From Membranipora membranacea (taxonomy: Eukaryota; Bryozoa; Gymnolaemata; Cheilostomatida; Membraniporidae): a DNA stretch of 64,000 nucleotides. The notes under the pieces were generated by a model. The model was not told the DNA's origin. It saw only the letters and a list, made by a program, of their open reading frames with translations, and did no database searches. Each line of letters begins with the position of its first letter. Within the stretch, counting starts at the first letter, position 1. The DNA lies in the NCBI GenBank assembly GCA_914767715.1, contig OU612069.1, positions 22,875,387 to 22,939,386 of the forward strand, read 5' to 3'. The translations under genes and the position numbers were made by a program. Shown here piece by piece: positions 10,741-59,338 of the stretch.

Positions 10741-11120
10741 CATACTGACTCTTGTGATCTGACTGGGCATGTAGATCACTGATAAACTAGGTTGTCATTA
10801 CCACAAAGCAGGTGTCGTAAGGCTAAGTATGCATCATGCGTGACTTGAATTCGCGCATGTGCAAGAACATTGAGTTTAGTTTGGGTTCTGATTGCAACTT
10901 TGGAAAGGGGAAATGGGATATCCCCTGCATAAACTGTCAATCAAAATCAGCTAATAATGACAAGAGAGGATAACTATTAATAACAAATCCGCACGCTTTG
11001 GGGAGTATGTCACCAGAGCAGGAAGCCAATCAGATGGCTTCGGAATTCCGAGACTCAATTTTGCAGAGATCAGCTCATGCCCAGAGCTGAGCATGCGCAG
11101 AGCTGAGCATGCGCAGAATG
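10741..11120. repeat. Interspersed repeat R1, copy 1
   Basis: Starts CATACTGACTCTTGTGATCT and ends GAGCATGCGCAGAATG. It shares the GGGCATGTAGATCACTGAT block, the TTGAGTTTAGTTTGGGTTCT block and the CGAGACTCAATTTTGCAGAG block with copies at 12796-13159 and 46643-47006. This copy has an internal duplication of AGCTGAGCATGCGCAG. The reverse strand gives a conserved short open frame ([17 protein letters not shown]) in two copies. Class unknown: no clear TIR, tRNA head or poly-A. Confidence 0.75.
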
Positions 11121-11231: not shown

Positions 11232-14200
11232 TCAATCCCAGAGAGCAGCTAACTCCTTCTCTGATATCTCCTGTTCGCGCTGATGTAGAGCTAAGGCTAA
11301 CATTTCATCATATAGACCAAGATCCTTGTTCTGATTCTGATCAGGTAATCCAAACAGTGTGGACATGTTAGTATATCCCTTCTCATCTTCTAAAATATCA
11401 AAATCACATCTTGCTTGAAAACTTTGCGATCCTCAGCTACAGATCAGCCATTTTAAGTCAAGAGTACTTACTATAAAGGCATGATGTTTGGTTTCTACCA
11501 CATACCATCACTTTACACCGTGCTCTGATTCGAGGCTAGGGATGCTTCTGATACCAAGTCAGGAATAATATGGATTATATTGGCCCTGGGGACAGTAGCC
11601 TTTGTTGTCCTGAAAATCAGATGGTCCCACACAAGTCCTGGACTAATCTGACCATGCCGCTGTCTTATTTTATTGAGCCATTTTGCCGCATTAATAAAAA
11701 ATAAAAAAACAAAAAAAAAGAAGCAGAATATGGGAGGATGTAACATTACCTTTGACAATAGAAGCTATTTCTTTAGCCATGATATCTTGTGCCATCAGCT
11801 CATCCCTCATCGTACCAGGCCTCTCCTCACGGATTCTATCTTCAGGCTCTTCTTCTCTCCTCTCGATAAAGGCAACATTACCGTCACCTTCCTCTGATGT
11901 GTCTAGAAGATAAAAGGGGGAACATGTAGATTTCATTCCACTTTTGCAAGCTAAAATCTATACTACCATGATTTGCTGTCTGTTTATGCTATCAAAAGTG
12001 CCACTGCAATCATTGAGAATTTCCTGTGCTATAAGATCAAATGCCGCATTCTTATGGGGACAGTGTATCAATTCATTAATATACCCATTCTCTAGAACAA
12101 GTAAGATCCAATTAGACTGCATTTGGGGTTGAGCCGCAAAATGCGGCAGCTCACCAGTAAAATTGCGACAATCAGAAAGCAGGTGAACTGGATCGAACTT
12201 TACCCACCCATTCTCTCGCAACTTAGTACTATCTGTGGCTGGTTCTACAATTTCAAGATTTTCTGAAGATGAATAAACCCCGTGACAAGTTGTGATAGGT
12301 TTAAAGCATCCATGAAATGAACCTTATAGTAATCAAGGGAACTGCTCCAGCTTATAAGCTTTAAAATGAGCCCAAGAACAGCCCAATTGGTCAACTAGGA
12401 CTGCAGTTATGTCATATCAAAGTAAGGCCTCGCTGAGATTCGCTAGCGAGCTTTGTGCAGGGGAATATGATGTCATGGACATACATTTTGCGTTTATGTC
12501 TACCATTAGAAACTTTGGACTCGTTTAATTTCGTCAAAATTTGATGAAACGAGTTGAAATCCAACGTAGCTCATGTCATAGAGTGCAATCCAAAGCAAAA
12601 AATTGAAGGAGATAAACACATATTTTGCGAGGAAAAAAGTTGGTTTCACTTTAATTAGTTCCATATACAAAAAATGTCGAATATCAGCCGAAAACCCTGA
12701 TGTGACCTCACACCCAGGCATTCAGGTTTCACGAGCGAATGTTGAAAGGGCCAACTTTAATGCCTCATAACACAGCCAGTAGTGGTCCAAGAGAGCATAC
12801 TGACTCTCGTGATCTGACTGGGCATGTAGATCACTGATTAACTAGGCTATCATTACCACAAAGAGAATGTCGTAAGGCTAAGTATGTATCATGCGTGACT
12901 TGAATTTGCGCATGTGCAAGAACAATGAGTTTAGTTTGGGTTCTAATTGCAATTTTGGTCTGGGGAGAGAGGACACCCCCTGCATAAATTGCCAGTCAAA
13001 TTTAGCTAATAGTGACAATAGAAGATAACTCTTTCTAACAATTCCACACGCATTTGAGAGTGTGCCACCAGAGCAGGTAGCCAATCAGATACCTTTGGAA
13101 TTCCGAGACTCAATTTTGCAGAGATCAGCTCATGCCCAGAGCTGAGCATGCGCAGAATGCCAAGAGAGTCAATTTTGGGCTTGTTTTGAAGCTGATTAGC
13201 TGGAGAAACAGCTTTGATAATCCCAATCTTAATCTCGTGGATGCTTTAAGTTGACAAAAATGTTACCTGAATGGTAGATAAGTTTCGCGTGGCCACCAGG
13301 ATCAGGTGAGGCGGACGATGGTGACTCATTCCCAGAAGAGCCATCTCTACTGCGTGTGGGAGCAGAAGCTCCAGGTGGTGGTGATGGAGGACATGGTATA
13401 TAAGGTGAGGCCTGTAGTATCTCTATAGGGATATCTGCTCCCAAAGTGTGTAGAGTCTGCTGTGGATCAATGTCATCTACAATAATGATCAACTGTATAT
13501 AAAAGGCATGACTACATAAATACGGGCAGGCGTATCTCAGCAAGAAGTGGTCGTTTCATTCCATCTCGTACTAGGACTGCCCTTGCTGATAAAAACCATT
13601 TAAGACTTTAGTGTTTTCTGTGTAACTATCTAGTCTAATAAGCTAGTAATTTTTGAAATTACTATTTTCTCACATCTTTTTTACTTACACTATCACAGTG
13701 TAAAACGGAGCAATATGTGCTAGCTCTAATTTTTATTTCAGTTTTTATCTTACCAATTGTAATTGTAATCACTGTCTCATTTGTTATCACTAGCACTGTC
13801 AGGAAACTAAAGTCTACGCAACAACGACAGCAACAAGCCAATTGCTACTTGTGTCTCAGCATGTACTAAATCGGTCATGATGGAGAGTAATATTTCCCTG
13901 ATTTTTAACAAATGCATTGGCAAGAAAACTTCTTAAAACAGATTGATACTCCCTAGATCGGATATAGATCCTAGTACTACCCCAGAATCAGTATTATGTC
14001 AGAAGCTCAAGGTTACTTGCATAACAGCAGTTGAATGGCCAAGTCCTACGTGATCCTTATTTGGTCAAAATATAACTCCTAAGTGACAAATTCTGATTCA
14101 ATTTACCTTGGTCGTAGTTAAATTCGGTTCTACCAGCCGCATCAAGTACTAGTGTCTTATGTCCAAATTCAGGAGACCAGTCGCTTCCTCTGTGAGGAGG

Positions 14201-17200: not shown

Positions 17201-20200
17201 TTCTACTGTGGGATCCAGTAGACTTGTGTCCAAACCCACATACTACCGGTATAAACCCACATACTACCGGTATAAACCCACAAACTACTGTACAAGCCCA
17301 AATACTACAGCACAAACCTAGGGTTCTTAGCGAGTAGAGAGTCAATCATGTCCTGCATCTCTCGGCTATAACCAGGTTGTAACGGTAGGTGCCTCTCCTT
17401 TCTTATCTTGTACCCCAAGTGTATTATGTTATGAGCATCAAACTGTAACATATATACATGTAAGTAGTTTGAATGTTTTGGCATTTCTGCCTGTGGCAAG
17501 AGTATTCCACCCGCCAACACTTGCTGTGGCGATTTTGTCACTCACATGTTGCTCATATGTGTACTATGTTATGAGCATCAAACTGTAACATATATACATG
17601 TAAGTAGTTTGAATGTTTTGGCATTTCTGCCTGTGGCAGGAGTATTCCACCCGCCAACACTTGCTGTGGCGATTTTGTCACTCACATGTTGCTCATATGG
17701 GTTAAGGAAGATATATCAAATCATAGACGTAAATCTATTGGTTGAGCTCAACAGATTAAAAACAAGATCATAAGGTAAGCATATCTAACCAATGGTTGCC
17801 AGCTTTGACCCCCCTCCGGAGAAATTTGATGTTCACTGCCTTCAACTGTGTACCTAATATATAGTTGAACTGTGGGCAGGACAAGCCTGCTTACCGCACA
17901 ATGTGTTTAGTACGATGCTAAATCTTCTGCATTTTTAACAAATTTACCCTGAACTTTCATTAAGTTTTACCCTAAATTTCATAGCCATAATTTTAAATTG
18001 TGTAATCATCCTCAAGATTAGATTAATGAGACATGTTGTATAGTGCACTACGCAGTCAAGGCTTAATTTGGCGATATTGAAAAGATATGAAATGAAACTG
18101 AGCTGAAACTTAATCTCTCAGGATATGAAGTAAAACTTCCTCCATAATCAGGTTAGGTAAAACTTCAGACTATTTCGACCAGCCATGTAGAATGTTCATA
18201 AAATGTTGAAGAATATGCAGGGTGAAATTCTTGTACTCTTAGATTTCGGCATCTGAATAATGCTGTAACGATTCAGCATACAGTGCAAAGAAGCTGACAC
18301 TTCAATAGTGTCCAGTCCTTCTAGATTCTCAATTCTAAATATCAAAATTCTAAATAGTAAGTATAAAAATTCTCAATATCAAAATTCTCAGTTCATCTCT
18401 ATTGCAAGCTCATTCATTCATTTGGTTGAAGAGGACATACCGGTAATTTTCTGGCTGCCATCTCATATAATATACAGCCTACAGACCAGATATCAGCTTT
18501 CTGGTTATACGCACTACCATCACACATCTCCGGTGCTAGGTACGCTGGAGTACCGGCAAACGTCATCGCGAGATCCTGAGTACTATAATATATAATATAT
18601 ATATATATATAATAATATAATTCAGGCAATCTTAAATGGATTGGATTATAGCCTAGCTGGACTAAGGTGGTAGTGAGGAACAAAGCTTGTCATCGCTAGA
18701 TGCTAGGTACAGAAGTTGACCTAAGCGACACTTAATGGATCAGCTAATAGCCTAGCTGGACAAGGTTTGTGAGGGGGAGGGATTAAACTTGTCATCAGTC
18801 GCATTCAAAATCGAAATCAGTGTGATTTGGAACAAGATAACATTCAAAAATTATGTGGTCATGACAGTTAGTGGTGACAAGATTTGTCCTTCCCCGCCAA
18901 GCATACGTAACTTGTCGAGCCAGTTTCAATAATGCATTCATCAAGTTTCAGGAGACAAATATACAGAGTTTTTTACACTGTTCTGTACTGCACTGTACTT
19001 ACTTGAACATCTTATTTCTAACTTATTGGGGGTTAACCAGAAAATGGCGTATTAGTCGCCCTCCTCCAATAGGGGAACCCCCAGCTATCTTGTAAATCAT
19101 ATAGGTAAGAAACACCATAAACTTCTACTATGCGTCATGTTCCCAGGACAGGCACATAGCACAACCAACATGTCTGTTTACTCTCTGACATTATACTCAT
19201 TTTTAGAAACAGATTTGACTGGACCAAGGGCGTCATTCATCACATCTTCCTAACTCATTGATAAGATCACAAAGGATTGAATTTTTGCGAAACTTATTGT
19301 TTCATAAACACGGTGTGTAAATCAGATTTTCTCCTTTTGAATTTCTTAATTTCTCTATTAACTTGATGATACTTTTAATAGACAGTTTTCTTAGCTCTGA
19401 CTTAGGCCTCAATTCGGAATCGTCCTCTCTCAAGTTTGGTACTTTTAACCAACGCCGCATAGGAAAAATGTGCTGAAAAGAGGGTTATCTTGAAAACCGC
19501 TTATGTAAGGATAAAAATGATTTTTGATTCAGAATCTGCACCTTTGAAAACTGAAAGGGACAATGTTTGGGAAAAAATTTTGGTATTCAGATATTCAATT
19601 ATATGAGTTTCTGCCAGTTTTGCGGACAAATTTCATTGAATTTTTCATGAATTTCGTCACTAAAATTAAGATTTATCAACATTCAAGCCTCCAATGATTT
19701 GGAAACTCTGTCCCACAGGGTTTTCAATGGTGCAGATTCTGAATCAAAAATCAATTTTATCCTAACATAAGCAATTTTTAAGATAACCCTCTTTCAGCAG
19801 GTTTTTCTTATGCGGCGTGGGTTAAAAGTACCAAACTGGAGAGAGGACACCTCCGAATTGAGGTATAAATCAGAGCTCAGGAAACTGTCTATAGTGAATA
19901 TTTTTCTTTGTAAAGCATGTTCTTTTAAGATTGTCATGTGGCGATTTCGAACGCTTTGAATGAAGTTAATATCGTCATCGCTGTTACGCAAAACTTACTG
20001 ATTGAGCTCTTTAGATATTCCGAAGTCACCGAGTTTAACGTCTCCTTTTCTTGTCATAAACACATTGGCAGGTTTAATGTCACGGTGTAGAATATGTTTG
20101 TCATGTAAATATTTCACTGCTAAACAAATCTGTACAAAAAGGTCCCATATCTACGAAAGGATAGTAAAAAACATAACGAAATTAACTACATCATGTTATC

Positions 20201-27368: not shown

Positions 27369-28172
27369 TGTCAAGAACCGCATCAACTCTGCAACTACAG
27401 ACTGAACAAGGTGTGGAGATCAAGAAGTATGAGCAACCATCTCAAGTTCAAACTCCACAACTCTATGGATGCGAAACATGGCGAATGACGAAAGTGGATA
27501 TGGACAAACTGGAGGTATTCCACATGAACTGCTGCCGTCGGATATTGAAAATATATCGGTGGTCCAAAACTTCCAACTTGGACGTACGTGAACGCAGCAA
27601 GCAGAAACCAGTCTCTCAGCTCATAGAAGTTAGAAGATGGAGGTACTTAGGACACAGCCTAAGGAGGAAGGAATCTCTCCCTCACACCAGTCTCGGGTGG
27701 GCCCCTGAGGGCACCCGAATGAGAGGGCGACCCAATCAGACTTGGCGAAGAACGGTGCTCAAACAGATGAAGGTACACAACATCAAGTCATGGGCGGAGG
27801 CTGGCGAGATGTCGGATATTGAAAATATATCGGTGGTCCAAAACTTCCAACTTCGACGTATGTGAACGCAGCAAGCAGAAACCAGTCTCTCAGCTCATAG
27901 AAGTTAGAAGAGGGAGGTACTTAGGACACAGCCTAAGGAGGAAGGAATCACTCCCTCACACCAGTCTCGGGTGGGCCCCTGAGGGCACCCGAAGGAGAGG
28001 GCGACCCAATCAGACTTGGCGAAGAACGGCGCTCAAACAGATGAAGGTACACAACATCAAGTCGTGGGCGGAGACTGGCGAGATGGCGAGAGATCGGGAA
28101 AGAGGGAAGGGAAAGGAGAAGGCGATTCTGGTGCAATATTCCACCAGGAGTTCTGCAACATAATCAAGTAAG
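27369..28172 (+). pseudogene. 5'-truncated LINE: reverse transcriptase C-terminal tail with internal duplication
   Basis: The frame 27368-27865 encodes the region downstream of the RT catalytic core: LYGCETWRMTKVDMDKLEVF, CCRRILKIYRW, RYLGHSLRRKESLP and GRPNQTWRR. This is the conserved C-terminal segment of CR1/Jockey-like LINE proteins. A 274-bp tandem duplication (second unit from 27811) repeats this tail out of frame, giving a second open frame at 27819-28163. Direct repeats TCAATTCATGCCA at 27356-27368 and 28173-28185 look like a 13-bp target duplication inside repeat R2. There is no catalytic YxDD motif in the piece, so it is inactive. Confidence 0.8.
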
Positions 28173-28683: not shown

Positions 28684-31600
28684 ACTACTGAAGGCACTGC
28701 GGAGCGTGTAGACCTTATCGATGTTATACAGGATTTAAAACAACCGCTCAAAGCATTTCGGGATTATGACAACGCCCAAAGTCCACAGGTAATTTCAAAT
28801 CAAAATTGTCTTCTCTATTCATGATCAGACATTACTCTTATCTGCCCAAATACAGAAATGTGTGAAAGATTTACTTCAAGACTACCCAAAGACCGAGGGA
28901 TGTTATAGTCAGGCAGCTACTGGTGACAAAGTTTTGCATGATAATAAAATTCAATGCTCTACTTGGAATGAATTATTGATGGTGGAAAGAGTGCCTCCCA
29001 TACGGAAAGTTAACTCTCATTCTCTGTATTATGATGTCACAACAGGATGTGCAATACAAGAAACAAGCTCTTCCTGTTAACTGTGAAATCATAATGCAGA
29101 GAATGAGAGTTACCTTCCCTTATGAGAGGCACTCTTTCCATTATTAATAATTCATGCCAAGTAGGGTAGGGCATTGAATCTTTAAACCATGCAAATCTGC
29201 CACAACTTTATCATAAGTGAATGCCCATCTCTAACATGCATTGGTCTTTGGGTAGTCTTTGAGCCAACCCGATTTGGACAGTATTACAAAAAGTGGATTG
29301 GTAAGTTCCTCAGAAATTCAATAAAACTTATAATCCTTAGTGTTATGTATTACAGTTTTGTTATTATCCTTTAGTAGTTTCACTTTGTAAAGTGAAAGTC
29401 CTTTATGTTATCTATTACTTGATTGGTATTTCATTATTGTAAAGGCTCTTTTTATTGGCCTATTTTAATCATTCGTCTGCATCCTTTTTGTTAGTTGTAT
29501 ATTAGATGTTAAACAAAGAAGATGCTTTGTTTAATAAGTTAATAATAAATAAACTTGTTAGCTTAGGGTTTTAAAGCTAGCACAACCAAATAGATGTCTT
29601 ATCCATGTACAGCTCAATGGCGACGAGATATAGTGATTTGAAGCCCACTGCTCAAGAAGAAACAGACTCAGACTTCAACTGCAGACCAGAAGGAAGTATT
29701 GTTCTAGGATATTCTTTTTCATTCTTTAGATTAAATTGTATGTTTTGTGCTCTTGTTGCAACAGCACAGGTGCTTACTTGGTTGAAGTAAGCTCAGTAGG
29801 TCCAGGATTCAAACACTAGGCACAACTAGGGCAGTTTGAACATAGACTAAGGTGTACTCAGAGCTTTTAGCAGGCATACTCAGGGTGCAACATTTCCTTG
29901 GAGCTAGGAACTTGTTGGTGAGTGCTATTAGTTAGAGTCAAAATACAGTCTGTGTAGGCTTATCTTTAGTGTAAGATAGTGAGTGTCAATCAAAATGGTT
30001 ACTGCTGTGTATTGTGATATAGATCAGTTTGATCTTGATGATGAGCAGGCTAAAACATTGTGGGAAGAGTGGTGTGAAAGACTAGATCAATATTTTATTG
30101 CAAATGGTGTTGACAAAACCAAAGAAACTGATGTTCCAAAGTGTAAGGCTATATTTCTGTCAAGAGTAGGCAGAAAGTGCTATTCGTTGATAAGAACACT
30201 GTGTCACCCAGACAAACCAGACACCAAATCATTAGATGATTTACAAAAGTTAGTCAAAGGCCACCTGTCTCCAGCTCCTGTAGTCATAGCAGAGAGATAT
30301 GTTTTTTATAATAGAAGACAAACAGCGGATGAGTCCGTGTCAGAGTTTTTAAATGCCTTGAGAAAACTAGCAGAGACATGTAGTTTTGAAGCATTTAGGG
30401 AGGAAGCACTGAGAGATATGTTTGTGATTGGTCTACGTGACCGGGATACCCAGAAAAAACTTTTAGGTGAGCAAAACCTCACCTTAGTGGGTGCTTTCAA
30501 TACAGCTCAAGGACACGAGCGTGCTAGAAAGCATGTGGACAACATGACAGGAGAAATTCACAAACTGCAATTCTCAGGTAAGAAATCTAAAGATTTTAGA
30601 AATAAAGAGAGTACTAAAAGCTCTCGTGCTTGTTTCCATTGCGGTAAAGAAGGGCATTTCAAAGCTGACTGTCCAGATAGGAAAAGTTTCACAGGCACAC
30701 CTAAGACTAGTAAACACAAATATAGGAAACAAAAGGTTTACAAAGTGGATCAAACGCAATCAGTTGCTAGTTCAGACTCAGAATCTGAATACGATGATCA
30801 TTTACATGCTGTTAGGGTGAGCAAAGTTGGTGAATCTAAAAGGGTAGGCCTACCCCCATTTATGATACAGATGAGGGTAAATGATGTACCTTTAGATTTG
30901 GAACTAGACACAGGTGCTGCAGTGTCAGTTATATCACTAAAGCAGTTCAAAACCCTTTGTGTTGAAAAGTTGGAACCAAGTGATGTAGGCCTTACAACGA
31001 TAACAGGGCAACCAATCAAAGTTTTTGGGGAATGTAAAGTAAATGTTAAGTATCATGACGCTGTTTATACTGATATGCCTTTGATTGTTGCAGAGTCAAA
31101 GGGTCCTGCTCTACTTGGACGTGATTGGCTTGCAAAGATACAGGTAGACTGGAAGTTCATCAAGTCACTGAAGGAAAATAACCCAACTAGCCGTTTGGTA
31201 CACAAGTACAGCACTTTGTTTGATGGTCAACTTGGCAAGGTGAAAGATATTAAGGTCAAGCTAGAGCTGAAAGGAGGGGCTACACCTCGATTTTTCAAAC
31301 CAAGATCAGTACCGTATGCAGTGAGAGAACCCATCAAAGAGGAGCTGGACAGACTTGTGTCAGAAGGTATTCTTTCAAGGATTGATTACAGTGAGTGGGG
31401 AGCTCCAATAGTACCGGTGAAGAAGCCATCAGGAAAGTACAGAATATGTGGAGACTACTCTGTGACCATCAATCCGCATCTGAAGGTGCCAGAACACCCG
31501 ATGCCAAACATTGAAGAATTACTGACAAAGCTAAACGGAGGGGAAAAGTTTACTAAGCTAGATCTCTCTCAAGCATACCAGCAGATTGAGCTTGACGAGG

Positions 31601-34600
31601 ACTCTCAGGCTTATGTGGCTATCAACACTCACTGTGGGTTGTTTGCACCAACCAGAGTCCCTTACGGCATATCAGCAGCACCATGATTGTTTCAAAGTGT
31701 GATGGACAGAGTGCTCCAGGGTTTGGATTGTGGATGCTATCTTGATGACATCATTGTCACTGGAAAGAATGATCAGGAACATTTACACAATCTGGAGGAA
31801 GTTCTGAGCCGCCTTAGCAAGTATGGTTTCAAGCTGCAACGCTCCAAATGTGAATACATGATGCCTTCAATACAGTACCTAGGAAATGTGGTAGATAAGA
31901 ATGGCATCAGGAAAGATCCTTGCGCAACAGAGGCAATAAGAGATGCGCCAGCACCAAAGAACTCGGGAGAAATGAGGTCATTTTTAGGCCTGGCAAACCA
32001 GTATAGAAAGTTTGTGGATAACATGTCTACCTTAGCAGCACCATTAAATGAGTTACTTCAGCACAAGCAGAGATGGAAGTGGACAGCTGAGAGACAACAC
32101 TCATTTGACAGGATCAAGAGAAAAATTACAGAGGACACAGTACTGGCTCACTATGACCCTAAGGAGGAGATTTATCTAGCTGTGGATGCTTCTCCAGTAG
32201 GATTAGGAGCAGTAATAAGTCATGGACGAGGCAAACATGAGAGGCCAATAGCATTTGCCTCACGTACTCTGACTGATGCTGAAAAGAACTATTCTCAGAT
32301 TGACAGAGAAGCTCTAGCCATAATATATGGTATCAAGAAGTTTCATTACTCTCTATATGGTAGAAAATTTGTATTATGCTCGGACAATCAACCACTATGT
32401 CATATATTAGGATCTCGAAAGGGGCTCCCCAGCCTTGCAGCTGCAAGGATTCTCAGATGGGCTATTGGAATAGCGGGATATACATTCCAGGTGCAACACA
32501 GACCAGGTAGCAAGAATGGTTGTGCTGATGCACTGTCACGTTTGCCACTAAAGAAAACGGAGACGAATCCCGAGATCATCAAATGGACACAGGAAGCTAG
32601 AGAGTGTAATACTGAAGTTCTCGCTTCACTCCCAGTAACAGCTAGACAGATTGCACGTCAAACTCGTACAGATCCCATACTTTCCAAAGTAATGCACTGT
32701 GTGAAGACTGGCTGGCCAGCAGTGTCTGAAGCAACACTGGAAGTTTATCATCATAAAAGGAATGAAATAACGATAGAAGATGGCTGCCTTCTGTGGGGAA
32801 ATCGCGTTATTATACCCAACAAACTGAGATTTAAACTTCTGGAGGAGCTTCACCAGGGTCACCAAGGCATTGTGAAGATGAAGGCACTGGCAAGAATTCA
32901 TTTCTGGTGGCCTAAAATTGATAAAGAGATTGAGGCAGAAGTAAGGAAATACTCACCATGTCAGCAGAATGCTGAAAGCCCACCTCAACTGTCCCACAAC
33001 TCATGGGCTTGGCCGGATCGACCATGGAGAAGGGTACATATAGACTTCGCACAGTTTGAAGGAGATTACTACTTTGTCATGGTAGACGCATTCTCAAAGT
33101 GGACAGAGGTTATCCTGATGTCAAGAGGTACCAATGCGGAGCGCACCATCGAAGCTCTGAGAAGTGTCTTCTCAAGACAAGGGCTATGTGAGGAGATCGT
33201 TGCAGACAACGGACCACCTTTTCCTAGCCTGGAATTACAGAAGTTTCTCCAGAAAAATGGAGTTAAGAGCATATTCTCAGCACCATTTCATCCATCATCA
33301 AACGGAGCCGCAGAAAGGTTTGTAAAAACATTGAAACGAGGGTTAAAGAAGAGCAACGGTAAGTTCTCTAAACTACATCGATTGCATGAGTTTTTATTAG
33401 TGTACCGCTCAACACCTCATTCTTTGACTGGTCAAACACCCTCAGAAATGCTCATGGGCCGTAGAATTCGCACTAGGCTTGATTTGGTGAGACCGGATAT
33501 GAGGGCTCGTATCACTCAAGAATCAGGAGGGGTGCAGCATCCCCGTGCGTTTGTTATTGGAGATCCAGTAATAGCTCGAGACTATCGAAACATTAGGAAA
33601 CCTGGGTGGTTATCAGGCGTAGTAGTTGCCAAAATGTCACCTGTCACTTACAGCATACAGGTCGAACTGAGGGGCGAGTTGGTAATTTGGAAAAGGCATG
33701 TAGACCAGCTTAAGGCCTGTGAATTAGATAATTTTGAGGAGGGAAAGGAGTTTGAAGTCATTGATAGAAGCAAATCTCTGTTTAGAAATAACATGTCATC
33801 TTCTTCTGTTGTAGATAGGGAGGTTGGCCAAATTCCAGCAGAGACTACATTTAACGAGAGACCTGAATCAGAAGAAACTCCCCCACTAGACGCGGCAGTC
33901 ACCGGTGCCGCTGCCAGTACTGCGGTGGAGGGTCAGGAATCTACTGAGGTGCCAGCGGCCACACCAGCTCAACAGATAAGACCACGCAGACAACGCCGCC
34001 TCCCGACTTTCCTTAAAGACTACGATATGACTGTTTAGAATCATTGTTGATGTAATTTTATATAGCGTGGGAGAATGTTATGTATTACAGTTTTGTTATT
34101 ATCCTTTAGTAGTTTCACTTTGTAAAGTGAAAGTCCTTTATGTTATCTATTACTTGATTGGTATTTCATTATTGTAAAGGCTCTTTTTATTGGCCTATTT
34201 TAATCATTCGTCTGCATCCTTTTTGTTAGTTGTATATTAGATGTTAAACAAAGAAGATGCTTTGTTTAATAAGTTAATAATAAATAAACTTGTTAGCTTA
34301 GGGTTTTAAAGCTAGCACAACCAAATAGATGTCTTATCCATGTACAGCTCACTTAGATTCGAGTAGCATTTCTCAGGAGGTAACTATTGCTCACATAACT
34401 TCTGCATCCGACTATCAATTTGTACTTTACCCTGTAATTTTAAAGACCGCCTTCTCAGTTGTGTATAAGGATATTGGGAATAATGATCATACTGGTAACT
34501 CACTGACAGTGGAGCTTGTCAATAAGATTCCGGGAGAGCAAGAATTGTGAGTAATCAAACTGGATATGATAAATATCTATTTCTCTTGAGAATAGGAAAG

Positions 34601-44600: not shown

Positions 44601-47600
44601 TATAATAAATGAATCAAGCTATTCGATTGAGCAGTTTTACACATAATGAGCGAAAACAGTGTTTACGGCAGTTTACACGGTAGGCTGGCACTCTGTATCT
44701 ACCAGATGGGAGTTGTTCTAGCGTTATGACAGTGTCTTTGCCCGAAGCGAACATTCTCAGGCATTTAGTTTTGAAGAACTTATCGAATATATCGTCTATG
44801 GTTGTAACTTCAAGCCTGCCTTTGCTTAGTCTACGTGCTGTGTTGATGAGGTGATTGTACTGGTTCTTAATATCAGATGAGAGGTGTCCGTATATAATAC
44901 ATAGGTGATATTGTAGGACGCTTTCGAGAAATGAGGTGTATGCCAGCTTAATGGTAGTTGTCTTGACATTCATAAAGGCTAGCTGCTTCATGATGAATAG
45001 TCGTTTGTTAGCTTTGCTGATGATGTTTTTGGTGTTCGTATTGAAGTTAAGCTTATGATTGAGTGTGGTGCCAAGATATTTGTATTCATCTACTCGTTCG
45101 ATGGCGGAGTTGTTGATCATGATGGGTGGAGGGTCAGGATCATCGCGTAGATTACAGAAAACAAGCTCTTTGGTTTTCTTTGTGTTGATGAGCAGACTGT
45201 TTCTTGTGCACCAGGATTCGATATTATTGATTTCAACTTGCAGTGATGATGGTGATTTTGGCGAGATGAATTCTAATATCACAGTGTCATCGGCATATTT
45301 TATGATGGTGTGATCATCGCTTACTGCCATGTCGTCTACGTAAAGTGAGAAGAGGATGGGACTGAGGACACATCCCTGAGGGCATCCAGTTGATGTTATG
45401 ATGCTGTTAGATAGAGTATTACCTACTTTCACTCGCTGTGTACGTGATGACAGAAAGTTATATGACCAGGATACGATGTTGGGGTTTACTTTATGAGATG
45501 ACATCTTTTGGACTAGGGTGTTACTGTTGATTGTATTAAAAGCACTGCTAAAGTCAATGAAAATCGAGCGTACATAATTCTTTGCAGAGCTATCGAGATG
45601 ATTAGTGATTTTGTCAAGTAACAACAATAGTGCGTCGTCTGTACTGCTGTTACGTTTATAGGCAAACTGGTTACTATCGGCAATGTGAGCACTGATGTGG
45701 GGCGCTACAAGTTTTTCAAGACACTTAGCGAGGATTGGTGTCAGGGCGATGGGCCTAAAGTCTTTAGGTTCTGTTGCGCCTTTCAGTTTAGGTAAAGGCA
45801 CTATATTGGCAGCTTTCCAAATATCGGGCACAGTGGCACTTTGTAGCGAGATATTGAACAAAGTACACATAGGAGCAGCTATACAATCTGCTAGTGTTCT
45901 TATCATCCGGATGGAGGGACCGTACAAGATGTAAGGGTTCCAGGAGCTCAAACTAGTTGATGACCGGTGCTGAGATGAAGCTGACAATGTCTACTAAAGG
46001 AAACTGAATAGGCTTGTTAAGTTATAACTACTTAACTTAATTTCATGTTAAAAATGATAAAGAACAACATCAATGCCTTCCTATGAGGTGTAAAGGTGAC
46101 ACCCTACCCTTTATTTATGATCTACCATATATCAGTCACTCTTAAATCTATTACGCTTGCCGATTACAGATACTGGTATTACAATGGTACATTGTTTCCT
46201 GATGATATGTGCACTGCATTCCTTGCTGTCGATGATATTGATATGGAGAACGGCTGTATAAAGGTCAGTAAGTTCCATGCTATGACTCATATAAGGGACA
46301 CAAATTTGGAGTTATCAGCACTGTTTTGTAAATATGACAACTCCACATTTGAATTGTGCAATTGTCACAGGATGAATTCTTCTCTGATCTTGTGATGATT
46401 ACAATGGCCTCTGACATGTATGGTTATCATACATGTCCACATTCACTGTGCTGCTATCTTTTTATAGATAATCCCAAAATCACACAAATCAGGGAGAGTA
46501 GACCACATCAAGTATGATGCCCAGATCCAGGCTGATCTACAGAGAGTTGAGCAGTATAAAGAGAGACTGGGTAGGTTTAGGCAAATAGTCTGAATAGTGA
46601 GAGGCAGGTAAATGTTAGTTGTCAGAGTAAGGAGCTGTTGGTCATACTGGCTCTCGTGATCTGACTGGGCATGTAGATCACTGATAAACTAAGCTAGCAT
46701 TACCACAAAGAAAGTGTCGTAAGGCTATGTATGTATCATGCGTGACTTGAACTTGTGCATGTGCAGCAACAATGAGTTTAGTTTGGGTTCTGATTGCAAT
46801 TTTTGTCTGGGGAAATGGGATACCCCCTGCATAAACTGCAAGTCAAATTTAGCTAATATTGACAATAGAAGATAACTCTATCTAACAATTCCGCACGCAT
46901 TTGGGAGTGTGCCACCAGAGCAGGTAGCCAATCAGATGGCTTCGGAGTTCCGAGACTCAATTTTGCAGAGATCAGCTCATACCCAGAGCTGAGCATGCGC
47001 AGAATGGCTGTTGGTTTGTCTGATAGTCTGAGTAAATATATTTTGAGTAGTCTGAATTCTGAACTGTGTCTAACCTGCATAGTATATTGGATCTCTGTCA
47101 GCTTCTTTGCAAAACCTTGGTTTATTTATATCATTTGCAGGAATTAAGCAGGTGGTCTTGAAGAAAGGTGATGTGATCATTTTTCACTCCAACGTTCTAC
47201 ACAGAAGTGATGCTAATCAGAGTGACAGAAGAAGGCTGGCGCTGGCTATAGCTTACAACACGAAGAGAAATAATCCTACTAAGATACACCACCATCCGTT
47301 CTACAAGAAGCTGGATATGGTATGATAACTGTACCAACATAACATGCTCAGACCATATACCCGATGTTCTTTGGCATGCCCAGTCAAAGCGGATATTATT
47401 TCTCACACACTCATACCTTGTCACCAGGGATACCAGCCGATTTGTATGCGGGTGGGTAGGGTGGGGGAGAAGATAATGCCAGGTCGGATGGTACTTTTTT
47501 GAAGGTAACTAGTGATTTATAGTGAATTCAGTTTCACCCTCTTATATCTAAAGAAATACTTTCAGCCGCCTGATATTGGCTCTCTTTCCCACTCAACTGT

Positions 47601-49623: not shown

Positions 49624-49744
49624 CTATCAAGTGAAGCAGATGTATACCGAACAGTATGAACAGTATGCACGTTTAAAAATCAAAAAGGAACTAAAGAAAA
49701 TCAGTTTTGTCACACGCCACATCCTTGAGCATGGATGCCCGCCT

Positions 49745-49892
49745 GTCTGCTGCTCTTTGTTTGCAGGCAGGTCGGAGAACCATCGGGGCCAACCGAACCC
49801 CAGTAGCCGGTGGACAGCAGTGGGATTCGAACCAACTATCGCCAGCATTTACATGCTAAAGGTACGGCGCTCTAACCAACTGAGCTGCCTCC
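49745..49892 (-). mobile_element. tRNA-derived SINE, reversed
   Basis: On the minus strand: GCTCAGTTGGTTAGAGCGC (A box), an anticodon-like arm, and GGTTCGAATCCC (B box), followed by a body with TCTCCGACCTGCCTGCAAAC. The last block is shared with the SINE at 7978-8175. The head folds like a tRNA, but the attached body marks a SINE. Confidence 0.72.
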
Positions 49893-50385
49893 TTCTCCTA
49901 ACTTACTCGGAAAGGTCCTTAGAAATGTGTGAAAACAATAAATCCAAGCTGTGAGGTTGCAGTTGCCTGCTTACAATCATCTAAGACTTAAAATTGGTAG
50001 GGCTCTACAGTAACCCTATTGTGTTTGCTGCGTTGGTGATTGTCCGCTGACCAGGCGTAGTTTAGCATCTTGATAGTTATACATCTCTAGGAAAATTGAA
50101 TATGATACGATTCCATGTCTTGGAGACTCTACAAGTTGTTTTAGATGAGAGATTAGATTTGTTCATTTTTGGTTTTGCTGACTTGGTCTCTTAAATCAGA
50201 ATGGTCGGAAAATCTCAAAAACACACTGGTCAGGTGGTGGTTGATGACAAGATGGTCTCCAGCAATGTACTGGTTACGTCAAATCCGTTCAATGATAGTA
50301 TGGAAATGGTGGCTGAAATTTGTAATTAGTTATTATTTTTGAATTTTGTAAATTAGTTAATATCACACAGCACAGAAGCCCTATG

Positions 50386-50965
50386 GAATCCGCGACAACT
50401 TGGCCCGAGCCAAACTTGGCCCGAGCCAAACTTGGCCCGAGCCAAACTTGGCCCGAGACAAACTTGGCCCGAGCCAAACTTGGCCCGAGCCAAACTTGGC
50501 CCGAGCCAAACTTGGCCCGAGCCAAACTTGGCCCGAGCTAAACTTGGCCCCAATTAGTAAAACTTGGCCCCAGATACTAAAAATTGGCCCCAGATACTAA
50601 AAATTGGCCCCAGATACTAAAACTTGGCCCCAGATACTAAAACTTGGCCCCATACAATGAAACTTGGCCCCAATTAGTAAAACTTGGCCCCAAATACCAA
50701 AACTTGGCTCCAGATATAAAACTTGGCCCTATTAGTAAAACTTGGCCCAGATACTAAAACTTGGCCCCATGCAATGAAACTTGGCCCAATTAGTAAAACT
50801 TGGCCCCAAATACCAAAACTTGGCTCCAGATATAAAACTTGGCTCTATTAGTAAAACTTGGCCCAGATACTAAAAGTTGGCCCCATGCAATGAAACTTGG
50901 CCCAATTAGTAAAACTTGGCCCATATACTAAAACTTGGCTCCAAATATAAAACTTGGCCCCATGC
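50386..50965. repeat. Left arm of the foldback element (tandem modules)
   Basis: About nine 16-bp units run to near 50540. Some twenty units of the form AACTTGGCCCC plus a variable 6-9 nt linker follow. The linkers come from a small set: AATTAGTAAA, AGATACTAAA, ATGCAATGA, AAATACCAAA and AGATATAAA. Confidence 0.9.
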
Positions 50966-51383
50966 ATGCCTCATACAATATTAATCTCTCGCAAGTGAAC
51001 TATATACTAGGCTGGACAGGAGTTTCTTGTACAGATGTTTAGCCGCCCAGTTCCTATCATTTAAGACAGTTCTACAGTATTACCTGGCGATGCAGCTAGT
51101 TGGTCATGTCATTGAAACTAAATTGTATAAATCTCGCTCAAATCAGCTTCCATGTGGCATATATTAAGTATTACAGAAAACCACCTTAAATAAATAGTCG
51201 ATATAATGAGCGAACATGCTAATTGTTACCGCATTTATGGTCTGCTTACTGTATGTTTATTTCTGGAGTTATCTGTGTTATGCTTATAAGAAGGCAATTC
51301 TGAACTCAAACAACAGCCACAGTATTCTGGTTTGTGATAATTGCATCATAAACGTTTTTTTTAAACCTGTGAGCTTGCCATCC

Positions 51384-54300
51384 CTAAAGAGTTCTGTGGA
51401 AATGACCGGTCCTGCTGAGGCATCTGCTGATGAGAATATCGTACATGCCAGGTAAGAAAGTTGTTTTCAGGATCCTTTCATTTGATATAAACTGCCACCA
51501 CTTTATGTTGAGTATCTGTCTCAGGTGTCTCATCATGAATGCATTAAGTTTATAAGCAGTAACCTTGTACCTTGTCTTGATGGTAGGATCCTTATTGTCC
51601 CATATATGATCTCTGAGTCTCCCAAAGGCTTTTGAGGCATTGGACATGCGTGTCTCCAGTTCAGTGTCGAGCTTGTTGTCGTTGGTGTCAGTTGTACCAA
51701 GATACTTAAACCTGCTAACCATAGCAAGGTTTTCACCATCAATATGGATGTCATCTCCTGCGTCAGATAAGCCCGGTGAAGGTTGGTACATCACCTCAGT
51801 CTTTTTTATGCTAATCTTTTACCCGAACTGTTTGGCTGACTGGGCAAAACCAGATATAGTTTCCTGTGCATCTGCATGGTCTTGAGCAACAACTGGAGTA
51901 TCATCTGCAAATATAAGTTCACGTACCAAAGCCCTTTCACCTGCTAACTGATGCATTCACTCCTTTGTGTCGGGCCGACACAAGATTGGTGAAATTGGCA
52001 GGACAACCAAGTTTCTCTAGAATAGCCCACAAGGCATTTCTGTTCACAGTGTCAAAGCCAAAAGTCAAAACACCATTACATCCTCGGCTCAACACAATCT
52101 TCTTGAATTTGCTTCAGGAAGAATATCATATCTACAGTGTCTTCGCCTGCACAAAATCCACATTGTGCCTCTGGGAGTAGGTCCTCTGCATAAAAGCTCA
52201 ATCTTTTGAGTAACACACAGGCTAATACTTTACCAGGTGTTGATAGAAGTGAGATGCCTTGATATTTCCCACGGAGACGTCGATCACCTTTCTTAAACAG
52301 GGTTATAAGCTGAGCATCCTTCCAATCTTGTGGAGGCTCTCCGCTCTTCCAAGAGTCAACAATGATCTCATGGTGTTGCAGGTGCTGCACTAGTAGAGTC
52401 ACTCTGAATATGATATTTCAGGGTGTATTCTATCTGCACCGGGTGACTTTCCATTGCTGAGCATATACATAGCATTGTTCACTTCGTCCAAGTCAGGAGC
52501 ATCATCAATCTCATTGCTTTCATTGAGAAGAGTGTTGAGATGTTCTGTCCAACAAGGGAGAAGGTCTTTTTCTCAGTTAGTAAAGTCTGATTGTCGGAGG
52601 AAAGTAGCTGATCAGATTGATCAACCCTCGGACCCCGTACTGCCCAAAGTCCTTGATGGAAACCTCTAGTGTCATTCATGTCTGCCAGCTCCTGTAGTTC
52701 AGCAGCTTTACTCTGCCACCATTCATTTTTCAATTCACGACATTTCTTTTGCAGACGACATGAGTAGTGTCTAAACCTGTTTTTGATGGATCTGGTATTA
52801 CGATTCAACATTTCATTCAGGGCATGGTTACAAGCAGCTATCGGTTCACACAGTTCTTTATCGCTCTCCTCAAACCAGTCTGCATGATATCTCTCCACAT
52901 ATTCCAAGATCTCTTTGTACACCTCATACACCGTTGACTTGAATGCGGACCATTATTCTCTTCCACTGAGCCTGCCAGAGCAGGGAGCTTTTCATTCATG
53001 TTAGTTTCTAATTCACTCCTGATGGTATCAGACTACATAGTGTTAACATTGAGCTTTCTAGGACGCTGACTAGATTTACACATGAGCTTCCGCACTCTGA
53101 GCCTGGTGTAACACCTGTTGATGATGTGATCAGTGCTGCAGTTGGCACTAGCTCTAGTATCACTGATGTCACACAATTCACATTGGCGGTTGACAATGAA
53201 CTCAATCAGGTGCCAGTGTCAAGCCCTCGGATGCATCCATGTTTTTTTATTGCTAGCTTTGTGCTCAAAGCTCGTATTTGTTTTCACCAGCTGATGTTCA
53301 GCACAGATAGACAGTAAAAGCTCACCATTAGAATTAGATCGTCCAGTTCCAAATTTTCCAAACACATTATTCCAGATCTCATTATCTTGGCCAACTCTAG
53401 CATTAAAGTCACCTAGGAACATAATTTTAGCTTCTTTAGGTACTGTCATCAAGGTGGAATCCAGCTGCTGATAAAACTGTGCGATGTTCTCAGGGCTATT
53501 CGTCCTTGTACCGTAAGGTCGCGTATTGTAGCTGCATGGTTAATGTCTTTGAGTGGTTAAAACTTAGTCAAGCATACCGCGGTTATAATAAGGGCATTGT
53601 TTCCAAATTCTATAGGCAGGCGGCTAATCAGTGAACATACATACTAACTCAGTTGTAACATGCTAGCAGCGACTATATATCTCTTATTTTTTTTAACAAT
53701 ATCTGACCTCAGAAGAGACATATAAGGATGTGGAGCACAATGTATTGACCTTCAAGGTCAAGCAGTTGTTGCCTCGTTACACCTCCATAAAATTATCATC
53801 CAATTAGAAACGATCTGACCAATAGTTAACCAATCAGCATTCTTCTTCCCCAACCAGTCGATGCAATGCTTTTTATTATGGCTGACAGAAATGTATCATA
53901 ATGTCTTGTTTTGAAGAAGTTAGTAGGACAGCTGACGGCTGTGGTCAGGTCTGTGCAGTGTGGTGGGAGGGCATTAGCATGTAACACATAGTGTGCACAT
54001 TTCTTGATCATTATATTGCCTGGGCGGCTAAATATTGTGGTTAAATTATAGTGTTCACCAACAAGCCACGTGGTTACAATACGCTACCTTACGTTAGGTG
54101 CATACACCGCAATGATAGTACAATATCTGTTCTTGTTTAGAGGAAGTCTAAGGGTGATCATTCTATCATTTACAGATTTGGGGGTCTTCAGTCATATTGG
54201 CGATGACAGCATTGATTCACTCTTCATTTCTGAGATCTTAGCACTACCAGTATCACCAAAACAAGCCTCACTTAGTGCTTCAACATCAATTCTATATTTC

Positions 54301-54413
54301 TTTAGCTCTTGTACAATGATGCCACTTCGCCTTTCTGGTCTATCTGCTCTGTCACGATCAAGCATTGTTCTAATGTTCAACAAAGCAAAATTCAGATCAT
54401 AAGCTGTTTGCAA
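51384..54413 (-). pseudogene. Decayed LINE (endonuclease plus reverse transcriptase) inside the foldback element
   Basis: Reading the minus strand from 54413: LLNIRTMLDRDRADRPERR and LPLNKNRYCTIIAVYAPN (start of an AP-type endonuclease), then, after an insertion, IMFLGDFNARVGQDNEIW (endonuclease core). A linker (52931-52480) with CRELKNEWWQSKAAELQEL comes next, followed by RT start PPQDWKDAQLITLFKKGDRR, LPEAQCGFCAGEDTVDMIFF, FDTVNRNALWAILEKLG, and LIFADDTPVVAQ with the FADD catalytic box. The tail SRFKYLGTTDT and LSRTGHFHRTL ends at 51384. Several frameshifts and stops, plus a deletion before FADD, make it inactive. The fragments are collinear, so this is one element. Confidence 0.85.
53512..54093. 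mobile_element. Small TIR element nested in the LINE endonuclease
   Basis: The ends are CGTAAGGTCGCGTATTGTA and, reversed, CGTAAGGTAGCGTATTGTA: near-perfect 19-bp TIRs. They sit exactly where the LINE endonuclease frame breaks between YAPN and TNSPENIAQFYQQLD. The 582-bp interior has no recognisable transposase. TA next to both ends could be the target duplication. Confidence 0.8.
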
Positions 54414-54814
54414 TTTTTATCCTTGGCGACGTCCTGCCAGTATGTATTTTATTTCTTGTGAGACTTCATGATCCAAATTGGAATAATGCTTGCAAAGGAT
54501 TTGAAAGGCTACTCTGAGTTTTGTAGGTTGTCAGAGCAGCCTTCTCTACAGGTTTAGGAAATTCTGTACTGGCAAGGTGAGACTAAGACGAGTGCAGATC
54601 CTCAGCCTGCTGATGCAATGACCAGCCAGATGTGCTGTAGGCTTACATACACATTGCCCTTACAGGTTGTCACGCTCCTGGCTTATTTTCATGGTTTGTT
54701 CTCCCAAAGATCCCCATCTGATTAGCCTTGTGTCCAGTGTCCATTTCACCTTACATTATACATTAAAAGTTGGCTTGACTTCATATTATCTTTTAGTGTG
54801 CAGAGGCAAGTTTC

Positions 54815-56159
54815 AGTACATATGGCCAAGTTATATATTTGGGGCCAGGTTTTACTAATTGGGGCCAAGTTTCATTGTATGGGGTCATGGTTTAGTTACT
54901 GGGTCCAATTTTCAGTACATGGGCCCAAGTTTTAATAATTGGGGCCAAGTTTCATTTCGTGGGGCCAAGTTTTATATTTGGGGCCAAGTTTTAATGAATG
55001 GGGCTAAGTTTTATTTATTGGGGCAAAGTTTTACTAATTGGGGCTAAGTTTTACTGATTGGGGTCAAGTTTCATTGCATGGGGCTAAGTTTTATATTTGG
55101 GGCCAAGTTTTAGTTATCTGGGCCAAGTTTCATTGCATGGGGCAAAGTTATACTAATTGGGGCCAAGTTTCATTGCATGGGGCCAAGTTTTATATTTTGG
55201 GCCAAGTCTTAGTTATTGGGGCCAAGTTTCATTACCTTGGGCCATGTTTTGTATATGGGGCCAAGTTTTACTAATTCAGGCCAAGTTTTAGTAATTGGGG
55301 CAAAGTTTCATTGCATGGGGCCAAGTTTTCTATTCGGGCCAAGTCTTAGTTATTGGGGCCAAGTTTCATAACATGGGGCCAAGTTTTATATTTGGGGCCA
55401 AGTTTTACTAATTGGGGCCAAGTTTCAGTACATGGGGCCAAGTTTTATTTTTGGGGCCAAGTTTTACTAATTTGGGCCAAGTTCCAGTACTTGGGGCCAA
55501 GTTTTACTAATTGGGGCCAAGTTTCAGTACTTGGGGCCAAGTTTTACTAATTGGGGCCAAGTTTCAGTACTTGGGGCCAAGTTTTACTAATTGGGGCCAA
55601 GTTTCACTGCATTGGGGCCAGGTTTCATTGCATCGGGCCAAGTTTTATATTAGGGGCCAAGTTTTACTAATTGGGGCCAAGTTTCAGTACATGGGGCCAA
55701 GTTTTATATTTGGGGCCAAGTTTTACTAATTGGGGCCAAGTTTCAGTACATGGGGTCAAGTTTTACTAATTGGGGCTAAGTTTCAGTACTTGGGGCCAAG
55801 TTTTACTAATTGGGGCCAAGTTTCACTGCATTGGGGCCAGGTTTCATTGCATCGGGCCAAGTTTTATATTTGGGGCCAAGTTTTACTAAATGGGGCCAAG
55901 TTTCAGTACATGGGGCCAAGTTTTATATTTGGGGCCAAGTTTTACTAATTGGGGCCAAGTTTCACTGCATTGGGGCCAGGTTTCATTGCATCGGGCCAAG
56001 TTTTATATTTGGGGCAAAGTTTTACTGATTGGGACCAAGCTTTACTAATTGGGGCCAGGTTTCATTGCATCGGGCCAAGTTATATATTTGGGGCCAAGTT
56101 TGGCTCGGGCCAAGTTTGGCTCGGGCCAAGTTTGGCTCGGGCCAAGTTGTCGCGCTTAC
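54815..56159. repeat. Right arm of the foldback element (tandem modules)
   Basis: About sixty units of GGGGCCAAGTTT plus a 7-8 nt linker (TACTAATT, CATTGCAT, ATATTT, CAGTACAT or AGTTATT), then three to four 16-bp GGCTCGGGCCAAGTTT units at the outer end. The linkers are the reverse complements of most of those in the left arm. Several segments repeat as higher-order blocks, for instance around 55600-55720 and 55800-55900. Long open frames here arise from the lack of stops in the unit. Confidence 0.9.
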
Positions 56160-56731
56160 GCCCTATGTTGTCACTAAGACAGTTGAGTGTGAGTCTTAAA
56201 TAGAAAAGAATAATTGTAAAGAATAAATTTTCGATGCCGCAAAGTGGCATATATTTATAAATCTGGCAGCAGGTGGGAGAAAGATAAGATATTTGAGGTA
56301 AATTTAGATATCCTGTTTAAAATAATAAAGCTCTTGTCATCACCTGGCATTTTGTTTGTGGAGAATTTGCTTGATATAGAATAAGTGATGACTCCATCTT
56401 GATGTCTCAGTCAAAACAATAAATCTATAATTTGCTGTAAAGATAGCAAAATTATGTCCATGAAGTAAATTCTTGGTGGCGATTAATTAAACTGTATAAT
56501 CTTCCTATGTTACGACTGGAATGTCAGTCAATGCATAAAGATGAAGCTGCCAGAATTTAAGCTAGATCCAATCACTGACACAAAGTTTTATACAGATGTA
56601 ATTTCTCCACAAATAGCCATACTGAGTATTTTACCACTAGTCCAATGAATGGTTACACAATCTCCAATCACTCTTAGTCTATAAGTTATATGTGAAGTGT
56701 TAGTTTGATGGCTGGTGATATCTGAGGCTAA
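56160..56731. other. Stretch between foldback element and channel gene
   Basis: It begins with the second copy of the 8-bp target repeat. The rest is AT-rich and unrecognised, and presumably includes the 3' UTR of the minus-strand channel gene. Confidence 0.5.
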
Positions 56732-59338
56732 TCATCCTGTGTCCCTTGTCTCATCTGCGGGCGCCACTTTAATTACTGAGGAGACTCGACTATTATTCCC
56801 TCTGTCATCTTTGTCTTTGCAGCCGCAACACCGACAGACGGCCAGTATGGCGTACTCAGCAAACTCACACAGTGTCAGGGCACTGCCTCCAATACATAAA
56901 CCAAGAGTACCTCCCAGATTAGCTATAACACATAAACATTATGATAATGTAGAGATAATGCAGAATTGAGTTTAGAATCGTAATTGAAAATATTCATTGA
57001 AATGATTACAGCAGGCAAAAAAATCATCAAATAAATATGTCTCCAACCTCTGTGCTATACAATAACTTTTCCAACAACAAGCCCTTGTGTTAGACACATT
57101 GGACAGATAATTTGTTACAACTTGTTCATATTTTGAAGACAGCTTGTGTCATACAGGGAAGCCGGCCAATTGACTGTAGGTGCTTGAAACATGGCTGTAT
57201 GCGACAAAGTGTCAGACTGTCTCAGCCTTAGTTAAGCGCTCAAACTTAGCTTGGGTTGCTGATTGTACCATTCTACTATCAACCAACCCTGACCTCCAAC
57301 CAACTGATGGTGATATGGTTGATATTGGAATGCCACTACCAGCGAACCCGGCATAATTTGAGTCATTCGCTCGCTCACCAATCATATCGAGTACATTATA
57401 CGCTAGATCCTCCTCCAGTCTGTGGTATGACATCTTGCCGTAGAATATATCCAGTAAGACCACATTATCCCTCATCCATTTCACTTGCTCTGCAAGGATA
57501 CAATAAAGGAGATACAACATACAGTGGTGCGCGTACCACTGCACAACACACAGGTTTTCAGCTGGAAACCAAGAGTCGAGCGCTGTTTCGAGGCCTTCTC
57601 TAGTACTACGATATAGTAAAGTGTTAGCTGTAGGCTCCAACACTTCAATCTTATCAACCATCATTAGATTATGAAAATATTGCCAAGAAACCTTTCCTGA
57701 GAACTTGTTAGAACTTATTCGTCATTACACTAAATTGAGAGTTGACCTGCTTGCAGTGTCTTGGAGTGGCTAGTATACATAGTTTGCAACATTCTTACCG
57801 TCCGGCATATCAGCCTGTCTGATGAAGTTAGTACTTGGAAATCTGAAGTTAGAGACTTGTACATTGTACTCATAATCTACACACGGATCATGGCAGTCAC
57901 ACTTAGTGAGCCCTTCAGTATCGCTCGGAAATGCCTCTGAAAATATTTCCAACAAGAATTTCTCAAACAACATAGTATCTGTGATAACTTTGATATATAA
58001 TAAGTTGTTGTTGCTATTATGGGTGACACGGTGGATAGAATGTTTGTACTATGATATAAGTTTGATTCAGGCTTCAACAGCATAAACGTGTAACCTTCGA
58101 ACAAAGGAGTCCATATCGTGAACGCATATTGATTGAAATGAAGCTTACTGAATGCATTAGCTGAGCAATTGAGCATCTCCGGAAAGGTACAGATCTTTGT
58201 ACCGTTTAAAGCTACAACATGAAAATAAAACTCTGTCATACCTCGGTAAGGAAAGGTGGATCAGGGCTTTCTTAGTCAGGGAAGAATAAGAGGGTGTCAC
58301 ATTTACACAATATATCAGCATTAACTGGCAAGCTTTGTTTGTGGAAATGGCGACAGAGCTAGATCTTGGGCTATTAAGAAAACAATAGACACTTTTCTGA
58401 GCTCTGATTTAGGCCTCAATTCAGAGTTGTCCTCTCTCCAGTTTGGTATTTTTAGCCCACGCCGCATAGGAAAAACGTGCTGAAAAGAGGGTTATCTTGA
58501 TAACCGCTTATAATAGGATAAAAACTATTTTTGATTCAGAATCTGCAGCGTTGAAAACTCATACGGACATAGTTTGGGAAATAATTTTAGTATTTGGATA
58601 GTCAATTATAGCATTTTCTGCCTGTTTTGCGGACAATTTGGCAGAATTTTTCATGAGTTTCGTCACTAAAATTGAGATTTATCAACATTCAAGCCTCCAA
58701 CGATTTGTAAACCCTGTCTCACAGGGTTTTCAATGGTGCAGATTCTGAATCAAAAATCATTTTCATCCTTACATAAGCGGTTCTCAAGATAACCCTCTTT
58801 CAGCAGGTTTTTCCTATGCGGCGTGGGTTAAAAGTACCAAACTGGAGAGAGGACAACTCTGAATTGAGGCATAAATAAGAGCTCAGAAAACCGTCTTTTT
58901 GCCATTCAAAAGACCTGGTTTGATACGGATTTCTATCTTGAAAATTGAAACTTAGTGCCAAGCAAAAAAGCCATGGCCATAAAGAATTTGGGAAGAATAA
59001 CCAATTTCTTGACAGCTCGAAAGCAATAGTTCATGAGTATCAAGATAGGCTAATCAGGAAAATAGCTCCAACTGGTTGTTAAGAACTTTCAAAAGTCACT
59101 GCAATGCCTGCTAGTGAATTCCTGCCGACAAAACCGACGCCGCACTAATGAGTGGTCAATGCTCACCTGGCTGGAAGGGATCAGTGCAGCCACATTTCCT
59201 GATGATGTATTCAGTCTTACATTCCACCATACAGCCAGAATAGGAGTAACTCTCATAGTAGTGCAGTGAGTTTGGTACTGAGTCTGTATCAACACAGTTA
59301 GATCTATTCTCGTCAGCAGGAGGGGGTTCTCTTATTAT
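56732..59338 (-). CDS. DEG/ENaC (ASIC-like) sodium channel, C-terminal five exons
   Basis: Exons in transcript order (minus strand): 59167-59338, 58149-58211, 57799-57936, 57379-57489 and 56732-56922. Every junction has GT..AG and matching phase; together they give 224 codons to TGA. They cover the second half of a DEG/ENaC subunit: the cysteine-rich extracellular domain (YESYSYSGCMVECKTEYIIR, CGCTDPF, CTFPEMLNC, KCDCHDPCVDYEYNV), the pre-TM2 strand VVLLDIFYGKMSYHRLEED, and TM2 as LGGTLGLCIGGSALTLCEF, with GGS where most family members have GAS (selectivity filter). A short Cys/Lys-rich cytoplasmic tail follows. The family forms trimeric, amiloride-sensitive, Na-selective channels in the plasma membrane. 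No TM1 exon was found between 59339 and 60860, where an oppositely oriented gene begins. The 5' half is therefore missing, overlooked or displaced. Confidence 0.88.
58386..58896. mobile_element. MITE family A, copy 3
   Basis: Starts TAGACACTTTTCTGAGCTC and ends GCTCAGAAAACCGTCT, with the same inverted arms as 4467-4917 and 19379-19891. The last bases are mutated. It is in the first visible intron of the channel gene. Confidence 0.87.

Follow-up and report, generated by a model that had tools for sequence, protein, structure and literature searches.

The window analyzed here, a contiguous stretch of 64 kb, contains a 5774-bp element at 50386..56159 that consists of two arms of tandem repeats and a middle region. 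The octamer GCCCTATG lies directly outside both ends on the plus strand, once at 50378..50385, adjoining position 50386, and once at 56160..56167, adjoining position 56159. Accordingly, the extent proposed in a preliminary description of this DNA proved to be exact. Within the window these are the only two plus-strand sites of GCCCTATG, where about 0.5 would be expected from base composition, and the minus strand contains none. When the two ends were compared as inverted repeats, they were identical over positions 6-69 (64/64), with the left terminal inverted repeat at 50391..50454 on the plus strand and its partner at 56091..56154 on the minus strand. The outermost bases (50386..50390 on the plus strand and 56155..56159 on the minus strand) are asymmetric and agree at two of five positions, the mismatches being located at positions 2, 4 and 5. 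The termini had been described as matching, which is correct for positions 6-69 but not for three of the outermost 5 bp, so that the inversion is incomplete at the very ends. Moreover, GCGACAACTT occurs once per strand in the window and in both cases at an end of the element, which indicates that the termini are defined.

Each arm consists of an array built on the core ACTTGGCCC, with 16-bp units on the outside and mostly 19-20-bp units of several subtypes on the inside. Tandem Repeats Finder (TRF) placed the left arrays at 50397-50550 (16 bp) and 50540-50962 (about 20 bp, with higher-order periods of 58 and 116 bp) and the right arrays at 54824-56101 (about 20 bp) and 56091-56148 (16 bp). The arms are unequal in length, the left one measuring about 0.58 kb and the right one about 1.34 kb. 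We identified single units by using ACTTGGCCC as an anchor with at most two substitutions and by keeping stretches of 14-22 nt; the count excludes two stretches, one of 24 nt at the inner edge of the left arm and one of 40 nt within the right arm. On the plus strand, the left outer domain (50398..50541) comprises nine 16-bp units, seven of which are ACTTGGCCCGAGCCAA and two one-base variants thereof, and the left inner domain (50542..50961) comprises 21 counted units of 19-20 bp. On the minus strand, the right inner domain (54824..56099) holds 61 counted units of 18-21 bp belonging to several subtypes, and the right outer domain (56100..56147) holds three 16-bp units. Altogether, 30 units were counted on the left and 64 on the right, and these represent 51 distinct sequences, three of which are common to both arms. 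These shared units and the terminal inverted match support the earlier view that the two arrays are inverted relatives; the distance of 4 kb given for them is corrected to 3.86 kb, the length of the middle region (50962..54823, 3862 bp). In the left arm, the two copies of a 116-bp higher-order repeat are 98% alike, and the best higher-order shifts in the right arm were 219 bp (99/100 identical) and 139 bp (98/100), each measured over its best stretch. Near-identical higher-order copies of this kind fit local expansion within each arm. The arms are therefore of common origin, and they seem to have grown separately since.

The repeat motif is largely confined to the element. We found 70 sites of CTTGGCCC in it (24 on the plus and 46 on the minus strand) and none in the window to the left of 50300 or to the right of 56200. 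For the shorter ACTTGGCC, a lone site per strand exists outside the element (39188, 14037), and the 12-bp core had four matches with two mismatches and 25 with three mismatches in the remainder of the window. In the middle region no 12-bp core with up to two mismatches was present, and a single site with three mismatches was located at 54802. Among the 56 units measuring 20 nt, conservation was lowest at positions 12, 13, 14, 16 and 18 (at most 1.02 bits) and the other 15 positions held at least 1.27 bits, a profile in which positions 1-9 are favoured by the anchor search with ACTTGGCCC. We also compared each of these 56 units with the closest of six typed subtypes and counted the deviations, which numbered 18 at positions 1-9, eight at position 10, 24 at positions 11-18 and four at positions 19-20. 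Deviations within subtypes were thus not clearly rarer in the core, and these units gave no sign of present selection on it. Recurrent variants of the core region included 21-nt units with a C at position 3 and four units with a G at position 10.

Long inverted termini built from internal direct repeats and a target-site duplication, here of 8 bp, at both outer ends are characteristic of foldback elements, and both were found. When two positions were drawn at random from the window, the octamers directly there agreed at 8/8 bases in 70 of 1,000,000 draws; allowing an offset of 0-20 bp, the same at both positions, gave 401 matches in 400,000 draws. It seems extremely improbable that the structure consists of two inverted minisatellite arrays which arose by local duplication and inversion and are bordered by an octamer that matches by chance. 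Local expansion is indeed clear in each arm, the arms differ in length, and a free choice of two independent offsets of 0-20 bp yielded an 8-bp match in 455 of 50,000 random pairs. However, independent offsets make such a match commoner, and therefore the exact placement of the octamer is the telling part; the frequency of a match directly at both ends and the position of the sole GCGACAACTT of each strand, which points to defined termini, both argue against this origin. The 8-bp duplication shows that the element arrived in one insertion event. Terminal symmetry, the exact duplication and the units common to both arms bear out, for the one copy studied, the suggestion of a single foldback-type insertion. 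Based on this copy, we conclude that the element is very probably a non-autonomous foldback-type DNA transposon which inserted as one unit.

Most of the middle region is taken up by a broken LINE-type retrotransposon on the minus strand (51384..54416, limits approximate), whose interrupted antisense frame is visible in the translation. Seven open pieces of the middle were scanned with Pfam. An endonuclease-like piece (53222-53539) matched Exo_endo_phos_2 with an E-value of 5.1e-05 and 23.6 bits, which is below the Pfam cut-off of 27.4, and a reverse-transcriptase-like piece (52076-52417) matched RVT_1 with an E-value of 0.002 and 18.3 bits, below the cut-off of 29.6. A third piece (52479-52952) had no match other than a weak one to a coiled-coil family (TRIM_CC, E 0.012), and the other four had no Pfam match. 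Comparison of the endonuclease-like piece with solved structures returned one match, which was not meaningful (E 0.9). The motifs FADD and LGDFNARVG, which we recognised by eye in the middle region and take to be of LINE origin, point in the same direction. LINE- and Ty3-type elements were also the basis for reading this DNA as eukaryotic and probably animal. The LINE is itself interrupted by a nested inverted-repeat element of 584 bp (53511..54094), which sits inside the endonuclease region, is flanked by TA at 53509-53510 and 54095-54096 and ends in a 31-nt inverted pair of 81% identity; by its look, this is presumably the ordinary Tc1/mariner-type pattern. A 16-bp inverted match was additionally noted between 51035 and 54020. 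Rfam gave no family at or above the gathering score, and ARAGORN detected no tRNA, nor any in 49701-50000 when introns were allowed.

No transposase was recognised by Pfam in the seven open pieces of the middle, a scan that covered a minority of the 36 ORFs of at least 60 aa overlapping the element; for these pieces the earlier statement that no transposase is visible holds. One might suppose that the foldback was once autonomous and lost its own transposase through the LINE insertion or through a deletion, an idea that is compatible with a non-autonomous element today, as it concerns the past only. The LINE is bordered at either end by about 0.4 kb of unassigned sequence (50962-51383 and 54417-54823), and no clear duplication of its own was detected, since the longest exact match was 9 bp and matches of at least this length were reached in 161 of 300 shuffles. 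Both observations would leave room for such a past, but the seven pieces scanned, which do not include the two unassigned flanks, yielded no recognisable remnant of a transposase, and we regard an autonomous ancestor of this kind as rather unlikely.

The ends of the element may hint at the kind of transposase that would have mobilized it. A transposase of the Mutator/Phantom kind is the probable candidate, because the 8-bp duplication together with the asymmetric outermost bases fits this group best. The duplication lies within the range of 8-11 bp for Mutator-like elements, and Phantom elements have 8-10 bp where a length is given in the available part of the source (PMC6446971). The Pfam scan of the seven middle pieces recognised no MULE transposase. 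The same foldback architecture could alternatively have been moved by a transposase of the P superfamily, as is the case for Galileo, which we consider distinctly unlikely. P elements generate duplications of 8 bp, but those of Galileo measure 7 bp and its ends start with other bases; moreover, the seven middle pieces contained nothing recognisable as P-like. What speaks for this superfamily are the long, internally repeated arms of Galileo, which contain transposase binding sites according to the accessible portion of its description (PMC3688188). A hAT transposase acting on the same architecture fits poorly and is very improbable. Its ends would presumably look different from the termini GAATC/GTAAG found here. 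Elements such as Hermes do make 8-bp duplications, as stated in the part of the study at hand (PMC10368747). GCCCTATG agrees in length with the Hermes preference nTnnnnAn, which is a preference and not absolute, but it departs from the pattern with a C at position 2 and a T at position 7 (PMC10368747).

The element belongs to an already known kind, the foldback elements, of which it is a well-formed example. FB of Drosophila and TU of sea urchin, which we likened by description only, carry short direct-repeat arrays inside inverted termini as well, and TU in addition has 8-bp duplications and outer repeats of about 15 bp. Among the systems compared from papers, the closest anatomy is that of Tm1, a Phantom-type Mutator foldback of root-knot nematodes, as far as its description was available (PMC3169594). 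Like our element, Tm1 has arms of short repeats (mostly of 14 bp in Tm1) whose number varies; the arms are unequal at the two ends, and asymmetric bases lie beyond the inverted repeat, where they form 7-bp end motifs in Tm1; one described copy even carries a nested inverted-repeat element in its middle (PMC3169594). In contrast, the same portion of text gives 9-bp duplications instead of 8 bp and one to nine repeats per arm instead of 30 and 64, some copies of Tm1 carry a transposase gene whereas none was found here in the seven pieces scanned, and the printed repeat consensus is unlike our repeat (PMC3169594). Tetris of Drosophila virilis is likewise an apparently non-autonomous foldback with multi-domain tandem-repeat arms, a variable middle and duplications of 8-10 bp, but it is built of units of about 220 bp plus a long flanking domain and not of 16-21-bp units (PMC4079207, available sections). 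Its assignment to Mutator was based there on the length of the duplications and on the fact that most foldbacks seemingly belong to this superfamily (PMC4079207). Galileo shares the long internally repeated arms but differs in having a known P-type transposase (PMC3688188, part of the text).

Searches for further copies covered prokaryotic and viral collections, which carry little weight for a eukaryotic element. Exact-pattern scans of bacterial, archaeal and viral genome contigs yielded 0 stretches, and a comparison of the left arm with a plasmid collection in distant mode produced no match. The terminal 15-mer was present in at least 120 stretches of viral contigs; none of these 120 contained two ACTTGGCC cores 6-14 bases apart, and they were taken as chance. 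The two-core pattern was found in one stretch of the genome contigs (L121), in a record titled Burkholderiales MAG; it has 2.2 copies of a 19-bp repeat with the searched core in otherwise unlike sequence and was also judged to be a chance match. In the literature no description of the element was recognised by a text search, which is blind to sequence and had most subscription papers outside its reach.

The structure of the arms suggests how the element may have been mobilized. It would have been inserted as one unit at an 8-bp staggered cut. The arms may represent multiplied copies of a recognition site, the core AACTTGGCCC being located at the very terminus as well. The terminal CAACTTGGCCCGAG and the AAACTTGGCCCGAG of the repeats are one base apart over 14. 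That the outermost unit has the same core as the repeats fits arrays which grew by multiplication of a terminal recognition site. A transposase made elsewhere in the genome and acting in trans would bind to these many sites, assemble on the two arms so that the ends meet, and cleave at the outermost bases, and the number of repeats might change via slippage or unequal exchange. The middle would then be free to hold other DNA, here a dead LINE. We suggest, tentatively and with some doubt, that the element represents a previously undescribed foldback family, probably of an animal, whose arms consist wholly of the multiplied terminal recognition site, arranged in two phases (16 bp outside and about 20 bp inside) and in subtype modules. 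If so, such an element would in effect be a portable array of binding sites for a transposase or a host protein, carrying any DNA, and binding of the transposase would be predicted to centre on AAACTTGGCCC in the 16-bp and 20-bp units.

Galileo has generated chromosome inversions (PMC3688188), and satellite DNA has drawn repeats from Tetris (PMC4079207), as reported in the parts of these studies available. The role of the repeats as transposase binding sites was called untested for Foldback and Phantom elements in the accessible text of 2013 (PMC3688188), and the present copy, whose duplications are exact and whose modular arms can be read, lends itself well to testing this role. As single-stranded DNA, the left arm folded over its first 175 bases better than shuffled sequences (z -6.2) because the repeat contains GCCAA-AC-TTGGC; this folding was not counted as support for a hairpin function.

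A Ty3-type LTR retrotransposon was identified at positions 29341-34351 of the window. Its two direct repeats of 276 bp each share 100% identity and enclose matches to protease, reverse transcriptase, RNase H and integrase, with the frame being broken by a single stop at 31684-31686. Both outer ends are adjoined by CTTAG, and this pair is likely a 5-bp duplication. We consider the insertion to be probably recent.

A reverse transcriptase was also found in an open frame of 458 aa on the minus strand (44614-45990; RVT_1, E 3.4e-32), which by its look is another LINE besides the broken antisense one inside the foldback element. Within the latter LINE sits an inverted-repeat element of 584 bp with TA at either side (53511-54094). 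Moreover, a frame holding a tandem duplication at 27537-28085 (unit of 274 bp, 97% matches) looks by eye like the C-terminal part of a reverse transcriptase; a Pfam search of this frame gave no match.

On the minus strand at 49803-49900, sequences resembling the tRNA boxes A and B were spotted by eye. This stretch is perhaps a tRNA-derived SINE, and ARAGORN detected no tRNA there. Besides, two repeats are each present in three copies in the window. The first, of about 515 bp and with inverted ends (4464-4922, which is shorter, 19377-19890 and 58384-58896), shows 87-93% identity in pairwise BLAST and likely constitutes a MITE family. The second, a dispersed repeat of about 365 bp, is located at 10736-11101, 12796-13159 and 46637-47006, its copies being 88-92% identical.
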